A stretch of 64,000 bases of DNA from Oligoflexia bacterium (GTDB taxonomy: Bacteria > Bdellovibrionota_B > Oligoflexia > Oligoflexales > JAGOVF01). The notes under the pieces are model-generated. The model was not told the DNA's origin, ran no database searches, and saw nothing but the letters and a program-made list of their open reading frames with translations. This document shows positions 33,391 to 38,068 of this stretch, in pieces (positions within the stretch are counted from its first letter, which is position 1; every line of letters starts with the position of its first letter). The position numbers and the translations under genes are program-made. The DNA is taken from contig JAUILP010000001.1 of the NCBI GenBank assembly GCA_030432875.1, positions 103,086 to 167,085 of the forward strand, in the 5' to 3' direction.

Positions 33391-33632
33391 AGGTTTTTGC
33401 ATCTAGCTGGTCTGCTGCTTTCTAAAACCCTTTTCAACTTTCCAGGGCTACCAAAGCAAATGCTCTGTCACCGTATTTGGAACATTTTGTCTAACAAAGC
33501 CTTGAAAATAGCAAAGGTGCCGAGCTTTTTCTTTAAAGTTACATTGCCCATAAATACCTGTTTATAAAAGTGTTAGGTATATTATCTTAAGATTAATGGC
33601 ATGAAATTTCCGCCCTCCGAGTCTAAAATATA

Positions 33633-33685
33633 GTTTACAAAAATGTAAATAAAACAGTTATCATTTTTCAAACTAGATCTATATT
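33633..33685 (+). promoter_or_regulatory. 53-bp promoter-like module, copy A
   Basis: GTTTACAAAAATGTAAATAAAACAGTTATCATTTTTCAAACTAGATCTATATT; 43/53 ungapped identity to 38068..38016(-); contains TTTACA-AAAA-TGTAAA and TTATCA-16-TATATT. Confidence 0.6.
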
Positions 33686-33826
33686 CCATTTCCGTATTGT
33701 CCTATTTTGAAAAGGTTAGGCAATTAACCGCAAAACTGAAAGGATATCAAAATGTACGGTCAATTATTAGCGAAGTTAACTTATTACGACTTATTGTTAC
33801 CCAGATTACTCAAGAAAGGAATGAGC

Positions 33827-34408
33827 ATGAAAAATACATTTAAATATTTAGGCGGAATTATTTTGGCATCAACGCTATTATTTTCAAATCTCTATGCAGG
33901 AGCCCCTATCCCTATTCTTACATGCCCAACAACAGAACGACCGTTGGGGCAACAGAAATTGGATGTTGGAGAGCAACTAAAAAACTTTATCAGTGAAGAT
34001 ATTCTAGAAGGTTTTTTAGAAAGAATGGACGGAGAATTTTCCATCGAACTTAGGTCCTCTCTCATTACAGGGTCAGGTACTGGCTGTAGTAGTACGAGGC
34101 ATATTGCTTTAGAATTTTCCATTGATGCTAATAAAATTGAGGCGTTAGTTTCTCCTAAGTCCAGTGAAGTTTCCGCGTTAGTTGTTATTAATTGGCTGGA
34201 AAATACCAAAATAAGGACAATGATTAAGCAATTAAAGATAACTCGTCCCTTTAGTGCTTCTTGGTATAGCAATTTTTACATAGAGCCTTCAAGTTCTTTA
34301 TATACCCACCTCCTTGAAGGTCAATTCATTACAATAACCATTAAAGATCTACCTCTGTGGTTTGCTCATGGGCAACAGTTTGAGTTTAATGATAGGAGTT
34401 TTGAATAG
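33827..34408 (+). CDS. Secreted protein of unknown function
   Basis: Signal peptide MKNTFKYLGGIILASTLLFSNLYAGA with RBS AAAGGA; an in-frame upstream ATG at 33752 also has an RBS. Confidence 0.65.
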   Translation: MKNTFKYLGGIILASTLLFSNLYAGAPIPILTCPTTERPLGQQKLDVGEQLKNFISEDILEGFLERMDGEFSIELRSSLITGSGTGCSSTRHIALEFSIDANKIEALVSPKSSEVSALVVINWLENTKIRTMIKQLKITRPFSASWYSNFYIEPSSSLYTHLLEGQFITITIKDLPLWFAHGQQFEFNDRSFE

Positions 34409-34435
34409 TCCAAGGAAAGATAATTCCGTTATGAT

Positions 34436-34474
34436 TGTTACTGAAGTTACACTTCTCCTGTAGCTTCAGTAACA
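34436..34474 (+). terminator. Long hairpin downstream of secreted-protein gene
   Basis: TGTTACTGAAG / CTTCAGTAACA perfect 11-bp stem, inner TACA/TGTA pairing; only a weak T-tract follows. Confidence 0.5.
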
Positions 34475-34719
34475 GCGTTTAATCTCTCATGATAAGTTGA
34501 GTAAATAGATCCAAGTTTATCAATTCAATTCAATTTAATGTGAATCAGCTCAGCTTCAAATTAAACTAACCTTTTTACATCAATTAATTTTGTCGCCAGT
34601 AATTTTGGGTCTTTTTAGCTAAAATAAAGTTCATGAATTGATTTTTAGCAATTTTTCAACCGTAAATTAAAGACTCTACTGACTGAAGAAACAGGCGAAA
34701 CAAAATCGTGAGGAGGGGT

Positions 34720-34791
34720 ATGACCAAATTGGCATCATTTTTTGAGATGATTTCTTCAAAGTTTAAAATATTAGGAATTTTTAACACCTAG
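34720..34791 (+). CDS. Candidate 23-aa amphipathic peptide ORF
   Basis: ATG...TAG encoding MTKLASFFEMISSKFKILGIFNT, purine-rich GTGAGGAGGGGT directly upstream; not in the supplied ORF list because of its length. Confidence 0.35.
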   Translation: MTKLASFFEMISSKFKILGIFNT

Positions 34792-35591
34792 ATGCCAAAC
34801 CAATCAATATTAAGACAGTATAATACGCTTGGCTTAGACTTTCCGACGCTTTTGGATAGATCTTCAATAAATTGTGTTAGCTCTCTCTTTATTCTTTTCG
34901 CATCTGCTGAAGAAATGCACATCGGGGCGGTGAAGAAAAGGTTGGAATTATCTGCTAGCTCCATTTTATTAAACCCTTTGAGGCGCCATTGAATTTGACG
35001 CCACCTTATATGATGGGAAGTCGCCTCTAAGTGAAAGCGTTGGGTAGTTGGTAATATGCGTCCAGCTTGCATAATGACAAAACCATTTTCAGAGAGAAAG
35101 TCACAAATATCACTGGCTTTCGCAATGCTTAGTTTAAAATATTTTGCTAAGGCATCTAGGGTCTGGAGGTCTTTTATTCCTACCGCGATTCTAAACGCGG
35201 CGTAGAGGCAGTCGGAGTAGTAGCGATTTTTGACACTCTCACTTAGGTGTATATTTTGGGGTAAGCGGTGCTGCAATTGCTGCATTTGTAGCTGATAGCC
35301 TTCCAGTTCTTTTTGATAGTATTGGGCGAGTTTATAGGATCCTGCGCGAGCCTTACGTAGCATCAGTAGAAAAAACTGAGATTCCTTCGGTGTTAACGCT
35401 AGGTATTCTGTTAAATCAAGGCCCTGTTCTTCTGTTAAATTTCGTTCTCCTTTAAAAACTAAACTGATTGCAACAGTACTCATGTTTAAGGCTAGAGCTA
35501 TTTTCCGAAATTGCCCGTAGCCTTTTTTAGGCATCGAATCAATTTTTTTTTTAACAAATTCTTTATAATCGTCGAAGTCAAAAATATTCAT
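34788..35591 (-). CDS. TIGR02147/DUF4423-type protein with N-terminal HTH-like region
   Basis: FDFDDYKEFVKKKIDSMPKKGYGQFRKIALALNMSTVAISLVFKGERNLTEEQGLDLTEYLALTPKESQFFLLMLRKARAGS is the family pattern. Confidence 0.85.
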   Translation of the reverse strand: MNIFDFDDYKEFVKKKIDSMPKKGYGQFRKIALALNMSTVAISLVFKGERNLTEEQGLDLTEYLALTPKESQFFLLMLRKARAGSYKLAQYYQKELEGYQLQMQQLQHRLPQNIHLSESVKNRYYSDCLYAAFRIAVGIKDLQTLDALAKYFKLSIAKASDICDFLSENGFVIMQAGRILPTTQRFHLEATSHHIRWRQIQWRLKGFNKMELADNSNLFFTAPMCISSADAKRIKRELTQFIEDLSKSVGKSKPSVLYCLNIDWFGI

Positions 35592-37285
35592 TTAACAGAG
35601 TTCTCATTGATTTTTTCATCGAGTTCACAATGAACATAGATTTTATCTTTTAGCTCCCCTTGTGGCTCTAAGGAGCTGTCCTTAATTAAATAGGTAAACG
35701 ATGGATGAAGGGAGTCAATTAACAGTATCTGATATTGGTGTTCACCTGTTTTAAATGTGTACTCATCCTGACGCATTCCAATTAATGTCCGCGAAGCAGT
35801 GGGAGAATTAGCATTAACTTCAACTGAGAGGAGAGTAAGGGGCGAAGGATATTGTCGTTCTATTTCTTCGAGCTTAATCTCAATTTCACCAAGTTTTAAA
35901 AATTTCGGCTTATTTTCTAACACTATGTCGGCTGCAATCTCCATGAAACCATCTTTTCCTCCCAAATGAAGGAGCTGGCAGCTAGTCATTTTTCTGGTTG
36001 CAGAATTTATTTTTAGCCGAATGAAACTATTGGAGAAGTTTTTAGACTCTAGAAAAGTGATGTAAGAAGATTTTTTCATTGAATAAATACTATTAGGCAT
36101 TTCTTGCTCTCCCAATAATTGTAGCACCTGATCCTTCAGGAGCCGTAATCGTAGGTATATGCTCGGCAAATCTTGTAATACTAATTGGTATTCATGAGGC
36201 GTTAAAGAACGTCGGTTTATTCCTGCACTAAAACACTCTATGAAATTGAAAATTTTTAACTGATTAAGGGTATGGTTAAGAGAAGAAGGAAAGAAGAGCG
36301 AGTCACCAAGAATGATTTCCTTATCGTGGATTACTTCAGGAACTTTTAATAATAGTGGACACAATGTCTGACGAGATGTCGACCAATCGGCTAAACTTAA
36401 AAATAATTCATTGATCATGACATCAGGCTGTTGATATAGCTGAACCAAAGTATTCTTTATGTTATCGTCAAGAATAAATATCTTCTGTTCGATAAACATA
36501 TTTTGCACAGACTGTGATGTAGGTTCATCATAATCGTAAAAGTGGGCGATTTCATGTACGACAAGGCTAAGGAGTTGTTTAGGTAAACTTTCAGCTGAAA
36601 GTTGCGTCAGTCGTTGTAGGCTTAAACAAATATGACCTTGTTGATTAATACTGGCGGTTTTTTCAGCTAAACCGTCTAAACAGGCAGAGCTTTGCAGGTG
36701 AAAGCTTAGTTGTTCACTGGATAAAACGGTAAAAATATTCTCGTACCGATATTTATTGCCATAAATGAAGGCTTGAAGAACCTTAAAGTTGCCGGGATAT
36801 ATAGGGCCGATAGCTTTGGGATTATGAGGATCAAGGTCATTTAGTAGAACATCAAGCCGACGAAATATTTTCAACAGCTCCTCTGGTAAGGTAGCCATCA
36901 AAATACGCACTTGCTCTTCTGTGGCAAAAATAGGATCGCCACCTGATGTGTCGATCATTCCGCCCCCCTCGTTATTCTCGGTATTCTTACTTGCTATAGT
37001 CAGGTTTGTATTGCCTCGAGTATGACCAGGTAATGAAAAAAGGTCTGACGCCTCATCTGGGCCCTCAGAAATGGGGGTTGGAACAATGATTAAGTTATCG
37101 TTTTGGGATGGTGTATGAGGACTCTTATTTTCATTATAAACTGTGGGCGGTGGCTGTCGTTGTGGTCTCAGACAAGAACATGCTAACAGCATCATTAATC
37201 CCGCGAGAAAATAATTAACCCATTTAGAGTGCGAGCATTTTTTTGAGGTCACGTGAAATCTCGAGTGTTGAATTTGTGTAATCAT
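35588..37285 (-). CDS. Putative lipoprotein with HEIAH metalloprotease-like motif
   Basis: LMMLLACSC lipobox; LLSLVVHEIAHFYDYDEPTSQ. ATGA overlap with the downstream regulator gene. Start set at MITQIQ; ORF extends to 37324. Confidence 0.65.
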   Translation of the reverse strand: MITQIQHSRFHVTSKKCSHSKWVNYFLAGLMMLLACSCLRPQRQPPPTVYNENKSPHTPSQNDNLIIVPTPISEGPDEASDLFSLPGHTRGNTNLTIASKNTENNEGGGMIDTSGGDPIFATEEQVRILMATLPEELLKIFRRLDVLLNDLDPHNPKAIGPIYPGNFKVLQAFIYGNKYRYENIFTVLSSEQLSFHLQSSACLDGLAEKTASINQQGHICLSLQRLTQLSAESLPKQLLSLVVHEIAHFYDYDEPTSQSVQNMFIEQKIFILDDNIKNTLVQLYQQPDVMINELFLSLADWSTSRQTLCPLLLKVPEVIHDKEIILGDSLFFPSSLNHTLNQLKIFNFIECFSAGINRRSLTPHEYQLVLQDLPSIYLRLRLLKDQVLQLLGEQEMPNSIYSMKKSSYITFLESKNFSNSFIRLKINSATRKMTSCQLLHLGGKDGFMEIAADIVLENKPKFLKLGEIEIKLEEIERQYPSPLTLLSVEVNANSPTASRTLIGMRQDEYTFKTGEHQYQILLIDSLHPSFTYLIKDSSLEPQGELKDKIYVHCELDEKINENSVK

Positions 37286-37949
37286 CTTGGCAGACGCCGT
37301 ACCATTTCCCCTGGGTCTGCTCAATAAAATCTATAATTACGTCACTAGCCGAAGCAAAAGGGGGGCAGTTAACGTCGGTATGAGCAACAAAGCCGTAGGC
37401 ACGCACATCTTTGCCAATTCTGTATTGATAAAACTCAAGCAATTTTATCAAGCTTGCCGCAGTAGTTTGAGAATCGGTATATTCATCTTCATCGGTAATA
37501 TATATTATCGCCATTTTCGATGCTTCACAATTGCCTGAAGAAGGTTTGCAAAGTTTTTCATCTAACATATCATCCAGAAGCATTTGCGTTTTTTTTAGGC
37601 CTCTTTCATAGGCGTCTCCGACTTTATTTTGTAGGACATTTTGTTCAAATGAGGTGTCATAATTAGAGGAAGCCGCTGAAATTCGTGGGCTAGATAGATC
37701 TTTGGTATCTGTCGTAATAAAGGTGATGTGCCAATCACTTTTGCCAATGTAAGCCAGTAGCGGATGGAGCTGCGAAGCCATGTTTAGTTGCCACTTACCC
37801 ATCGAATAGGAATTATCCACTACTATAACGATTTCAAGGCTATTACGGGGCAGAAGATTTTCGATTCCTGTTTGGCTCATAGCTAGATTGAAAGTCGCAA
37901 GAGGCAAAAAACCGCATAAAGTTAACTGTGCTAATAATCGACGGGACAT
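37224..37949 (-). CDS. Secreted von Willebrand factor A domain protein
   Basis: Signal MSRRLLAQLTLCGFLPLATFNLAMS with RBS AAAGG; LEIVIVVDNSYSMGKW (DxSxS MIDAS) and MAIIYITDEDEYTD. Confidence 0.85.
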   Translation of the reverse strand: MSRRLLAQLTLCGFLPLATFNLAMSQTGIENLLPRNSLEIVIVVDNSYSMGKWQLNMASQLHPLLAYIGKSDWHITFITTDTKDLSSPRISAASSNYDTSFEQNVLQNKVGDAYERGLKKTQMLLDDMLDEKLCKPSSGNCEASKMAIIYITDEDEYTDSQTTAASLIKLLEFYQYRIGKDVRAYGFVAHTDVNCPPFASASDVIIDFIEQTQGKWYGVCQDDYTNSTLEISRDLKKMLAL

Positions 37950-37974
37950 TGTAGTGACCTTTCTTCTTTGGGGG

Positions 37975-38004
37975 GTTATATCCAATATTCGCAGGATATG
38001 TCAA
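37975..38004 (-). promoter_or_regulatory. Second sigma70-like promoter upstream of VWA gene
   Basis: TTGACA-18-TATAAC on the minus strand. Confidence 0.4.
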
Positions 38005-38015
38005 GACGAAAGAAA

Positions 38016-38068
38016 AATATAGATCTGGCATGAAAATTGTTAACGACTTGATTAACATTTTTGTAAAC
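38016..38068 (-). promoter_or_regulatory. 53-bp promoter-like module, copy B
   Basis: GTTTACAAAAATGTTAATCAAGTCGTTAACAATTTTCATGCCAGATCTATATT; TTAACA-16-TATATT; ~65 bp upstream of the VWA operon start. Confidence 0.6.

Follow-up and report, generated by a model that had tools for sequence, protein, structure and literature searches.

The region described here lies on contig JAUILP010000001.1 of an Oligoflexia bacterium, within a stretch of 64,000 nucleotides that was analysed as a whole and is referred to as the window. The reverse strand carries an operon of three genes. The first (37224–37949, ATG at 37949) encodes a VWA-domain secreted protein with a DNSYS motif, which scored 18.7 bits against the Pfam VWA family (PF00092, E 0.002), below the cut-off of 23.8. 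It is preceded by a leader of 66 nt (37950–38015, reverse strand) with a GAAAGG sequence before the start codon. The second gene (35588–37285) encodes a putative zinc-peptidase-like lipoprotein, called the HEIAH lipoprotein hereafter, which reached the cut-off of no curated family. The last gene (34788–35591) encodes a protein with an HTH region that exceeded the cut-off for DUF4423 (Pfam PF14394, 40.2 bits, cut-off 30) and matched NCBIfam TIGR02147 over nearly its full length with 49.1 bits, the cut-off being 50. It is the candidate regulator of the promoter module described below. On the forward strand, a gene for a secreted protein of 218 aa occupies positions 33752–34408. This protein matched no family and had no homologue in its own genome or in 36 relatives, and none of the relatives searched carried a recognisable 218-aa gene or the full operon. 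An internal ATG, located about 72–78 nt (24–26 codons) downstream in this ORF, has a ribosome-binding-site-like sequence (AAGAAAGG) before it and an ordinary signal peptide after it. This internal ATG may be the original start of the gene.

Both the 218-aa gene and the operon are preceded by a 53-bp promoter module, which the original prediction had located correctly. Copy A (33633–33685, forward strand) and copy B (38016–38068, reverse strand) align without gaps and agree at 43 of 53 positions. The alignment score of 33 compares with a maximum of 18 among 2000 dinucleotide shuffles, and the next-best 53-mers within the window reach 33/53 to copy A, in coding sequence, and 29/53 to copy B. The palindrome TTTACA-AAAA-TGTAAA, a putative operator, is perfect in copy A (33634–33649, forward strand) and has one mismatch in copy B (TTTACA-AAAA-TGTTAA, 38052–38067, reverse strand). 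Also as predicted, it is followed by a -35-like hexamer (TTATCA in A, TTAACA in B), a 16-bp spacer and a -10-like TATATT (33658–33685, forward strand, and 38016–38043, reverse strand). These hexamers agree with sigma-70 at 10 of 12 positions in copy B and 9 of 12 in the other copy, and the 16-nt spacer falls within the 16–18 nt applied as the sigma-70 criterion, such matches being common in the region (23 versus 15.1 in shuffles).

The palindrome alone was rejected as a genome-wide marker. Allowing up to two mismatches, it had 63 matches in the whole genome and its reversed control had 59, a frequency at chance level, and therefore only the composite module is informative. The palindrome search also brought up a repeat of some 100 bp that is dispersed in the genome and includes CATTTAC(C/G)nnAATGTAAACTC (own-genome loci L005–L030, for example L010:1501 and L028:1501/1611/1721). 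At least a dozen copies were seen, some of them close to contig ends; on contig C86, three follow one another in tandem, spaced by 110 bp. One copy has inverted ends such as GGATAAC...GTTATCC. The repeat may represent a MITE-like element or one resembling a recombination site.

The composite module was searched for in the organism's own genome (4.0 Mb in 191 contigs, 95% complete) using two covariance models, R1, a sequence-only model of copies A and B, and R2, a model of all three copies found, the E-values of both being rough. With R1, copies A and B and one more site were retrieved, copy C at C178:28232–28280 (E 0.0046), followed by a match with an E-value of 1.4. The latter, on contig C74, is a partial match that follows a transposase-like ORF and has no plausible gene downstream; it was treated as background. 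R2 matched copy A with an E-value of 6e-13 and also recovered copy B, and the next match beyond the three copies had an E-value of 0.68; a half-module pattern occurred in A and B only. The genome thus holds just three strong sites, each before these genes, and not many matches devoid of context.

Copy C belongs to a paralogous operon, whose likely ATG follows 119 bp after the start of the module. Gene content and gene order are those of the window operon, and no further complete copy of the VWA/lipoprotein/TIGR02147 set exists in the genome. Pairwise alignments gave identities of 28% for the VWA proteins, 26% for the lipoproteins, which have the motifs HEIAHFYDYDE and GGG.IDTSGGDP in common, and 43% for the TIGR02147 proteins, the paralogous regulator exceeding the TIGR02147 cut-off of 50 with 74.2 bits. 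The distance from module start to ATG is exactly 119 bp in all three copies. Every pair among A, B and C is above shuffles in the module (0/2000), and the leaders of A and C (210/2000) and of B and C (25/2000) are weakly or not above them; the -10 region of copy C is weak. That the module was kept between operons so diverged suggests selection on it. Among the searched genomes of the order, nothing else matched the lipoprotein with comparable strength, and no lipoprotein pair was found in the named genomes searched. Contig C95 of the same genome (G000) carries another paralogue of the lipoprotein, the third and a weaker one (L143, 4091–5761, profile E 3e-5); its HExxH is lost (YREIGRL), and no VWA or TIGR02147 gene was seen alongside.

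A candidate fourth site, D, was found 125 bp before a gene for a 163-aa secreted protein downstream of the paralogous operon. It has GTTTAC half-sites (p 0.055), and its dyad spacing differs, a perfect 8-bp inverted repeat being arranged as GTGTTTAC-N9-GTAAACAC (G000 C178, L073 8329–8353). A transposase-like fragment lies between the paralogous operon and the 163-aa gene (L073, 7924–8235). From the sequence, our reading is one regulon with three sites, or perhaps four.

The two operon regulators are almost identical in their HTH regions (GQFRKxAxALNMSTxxxSLxFKG[ED]R), unlike the aligned paralogues from the same genome, which would fit a common operator. In a profile of 22 relatives, a HigA-like Cro/C1 match appeared at the N-terminus and a MarR/ArsR-like winged helix at profile positions of about 140–200, all of them weak. 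By its best TrmFO matches, at 51–58% identity, the lineage is Oligoflexales-like. The family is numerous in this order, with 16 TIGR02147 members in this genome and 48 in one relative, and 14 control genomes contained none. In one relative, three TIGR02147 genes stand consecutively (G040 C384, L208 3467–6207).

Relatives of the operon's regulator were analysed for comparable sites. In the genomes of relatives, the R2 model had no match below an E-value of 0.02. When a matrix of A, B and C was applied to 24 regions between regulators and divergent genes, the predicted strand showed enrichment (Fisher p 0.005), in contrast to the other strand (p 0.65). Low-p matches lay 119 (L189), 127 (L190), 122 (L192) and 126 bp (L221) from the ATG of the neighbouring gene. 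In L189, the closest relative by profile, which belongs to another family of the order, the match before the divergent secreted gene had a p-value of 0.017, and the dyad, TAACA-TTTT-TGTTA, lies about 10 nt upstream of the start codon of the regulator itself. Perfect dyads of 14–16 bp at 110–136 bp were present in 9 of 23 regions versus 2.4 expected from shuffles, and none of 500 shuffle sets reached 9; this bin was chosen after inspection of the data, and dyads occur in neighbouring bins too (7 in 84–109). A new set of 11 regions from more distant relatives yielded one dyad at this distance versus 0.9 expected, and the matrix gave a Fisher p of 0.09. A dyad rule for the whole TIGR02147 family was dropped because it did not replicate there, and the claim is hence limited to near relatives, in which the sequences are suggestive of a 14–16-bp dyad at a similar distance. 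As the dyads of different regulators differ in sequence, the site cannot be traced by sequence alone outside this genome.

The module may be a real promoter whose dyad is bound by another factor, for instance of CRP/FNR type, and not by the TIGR02147 protein of the operon. TTTACA-N4-TGTAAA does resemble the operators of many dimeric proteins, and the tie to TIGR02147 is an indirect one. However, a genome with so few strong sites, all of them before these genes, would be unusual for a global factor; moreover, the two regulators match each other in the HTH region as the operon modules do, and among related regulators the dyad varies in sequence and sits at a comparable position. We consider binding by another factor rather unlikely. 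As to a specific candidate, the LexA site of Bdellovibrio is TTAC-N3-GTAA, and LexA was set aside because the spacing here is N6/N5.

The original prediction held that the genes behind copies A and B are unrelated. At their 5' ends this is not so. Local alignment revealed homology over 171 bp without net gap, between 33626–33796 (A) and 38075–37905 (B), spanning the module, leaders of equal length (66 nt, 33686–33751, forward strand, in A) and the first 45 nt, or 15 codons, of the VWA gene, which open the 218-aa ORF in frame (33752–33796, forward strand). The leaders are 57% identical (38/67), with a global score above all 2000 shuffles, and the coding starts align with a score of 23 compared with a shuffle maximum of 15 (2000 shuffles). 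Nothing aligned in the 100 bp upstream or in the coding sequence past codon 15. Because homology continues through the leader into 15 VWA codons, copy A is, on the alignment, a partial duplication of the 5' end of the VWA gene, placed before the secreted-protein gene. Its likeness to B is first of all one by descent, which contradicts an independent sharing of the module by unrelated genes. The direction of copying, from the operon to the 218-aa gene, is suggested by the paralogous operon, which has the same module.

Such a history also allows that copy A is a mere residue of a fairly recent partial duplication, has no regulatory meaning and leaves the 218-aa gene outside the regulon. Homology extending past the promoter into leader and codons is what a plain duplication would produce, the 15 codons in copy A differ mostly by amino-acid-changing substitutions, and the similarity of A and B could persist through recency alone. 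On the other hand, the leader has fallen to 57% identity while the module is still at 81%, with a perfect dyad in A, and the leader of A keeps its length and a GAAAGG site in frame with the ORF. We regard a functionless residue as unlikely; since the module is better preserved than the leader, copy A is probably still in use. That the conserved element acts as an RNA or leader (attenuator) and not as a DNA operator is highly improbable, for although the leader length and the 119 bp from module start to ATG are constant in three copies, the leader is less conserved, and the likely start site falls downstream of the conserved part.

Taken together, we favour, with a probability of about 0.6, a reading in which the module is a sigma-70-like promoter with a 15–16-bp dyad operator for the operon's own TIGR02147 regulator, the operon having been duplicated and a piece with its promoter copied to the 218-aa gene. 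We infer from sequence features that the module works as a promoter and that the TIGR02147 protein binds it; the protein may activate or repress. The TIGR02147-type regulator would control its own operon, comprising the VWA protein, the HEIAH lipoprotein and itself, via the dyad. The whole operon would have been duplicated long ago, with the same promoter and operator arrangement kept on contig C178. Separately, promoter, leader and first 15 VWA codons would have been copied before the nearby secreted-protein gene, which would thereby have joined the regulon. A transcription start about 7 nt after TATATT would put the dyad centre near -50, a position that allows activation; in divergent pairs, binding to the dyad could also block the neighbouring promoter. 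Of the one-regulon idea in the original prediction, a rare promoter-like module and a small regulon, plausibly including the TIGR02147 gene, stand, and the sharing by unrelated genes does not. The partial duplication would clearly exemplify how a gene can acquire a regulated promoter from its neighbour.

The neighbourhoods of TIGR02147 genes in other Oligoflexia place this arrangement in a wider setting. A gene with a peptidase signature was found within 1.5 kb of the regulator at 25 of 70 loci, 20 of them divergent, compared with 2 of 100 ORFs further away; the 70 loci share phylogenetic history, and the 100 background ORFs are unmatched. Relatives of the operon's regulator recurrently have secreted neighbours in which an SGGG-type N-terminus is combined with an HExxHxxGxxH site; one of these proteins exceeded the Pfam M10 cut-off. 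Divergent pairs of a TIGR02147 gene and a gene for a secreted protein with HExxHxxGxxH or a similar HExxH were seen across families of the class (L156, L191, L194, L195, L205, L206, L211, L213, L218, L219, L221, L299, L305, L306 and L308). In the window operon, where the regulator follows the HEIAH lipoprotein, this pairing seems to have been rearranged. Tentatively, the TIGR02147 proteins of an Oligoflexia clade might be local regulators, each with a secreted metallopeptidase-like gene and a dyad of its own at a nearly fixed distance, the window being a case in which part of a gene was duplicated and the site thereby spread to a new gene. With a candidate operator in three natural variants and a recurring secreted-peptidase neighbourhood, the function of the family becomes directly testable.

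By HMM, the paralogue on C178 belongs to TIGR02147 (Fsuc_second), and the window regulator, above the DUF4423 cut-off and just under that of TIGR02147, probably belongs to the same TIGR02147/DUF4423 family. The literature searched, which lacked most subscription papers, had no mention of TIGR02147 or its cross-references, and no operator, target or function for the family was found there. The single paper with a mention of DUF4423 only tabulates one such protein, Bd3700, among those of Bdellovibrio that increase while it grows in prey (PMC12546842). Many TIGR02147 relatives stand divergent to secreted HExxHxxGxxH proteins reminiscent of the matrixin-type (M10) metallopeptidases, from which the window lipoprotein differs: its HEIAHFYDYDE lacks the third histidine of the HExxHxxGxxH zinc site of metzincins and M10. 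The window regulator is also distinct from a HigA antitoxin, scoring 15.1 versus 47.7 bits for TIGR02607 and having as its neighbour a 578-aa lipoprotein in place of an adjacent HigB. It differs from HigA-type and other Cro/C1 autoregulators in the second, MarR/ArsR-like winged-helix stretch and in having no toxin partner, and resembles them in the weak N-terminal HTH match; an autoregulated operon with a dyad before its promoter would work alike.
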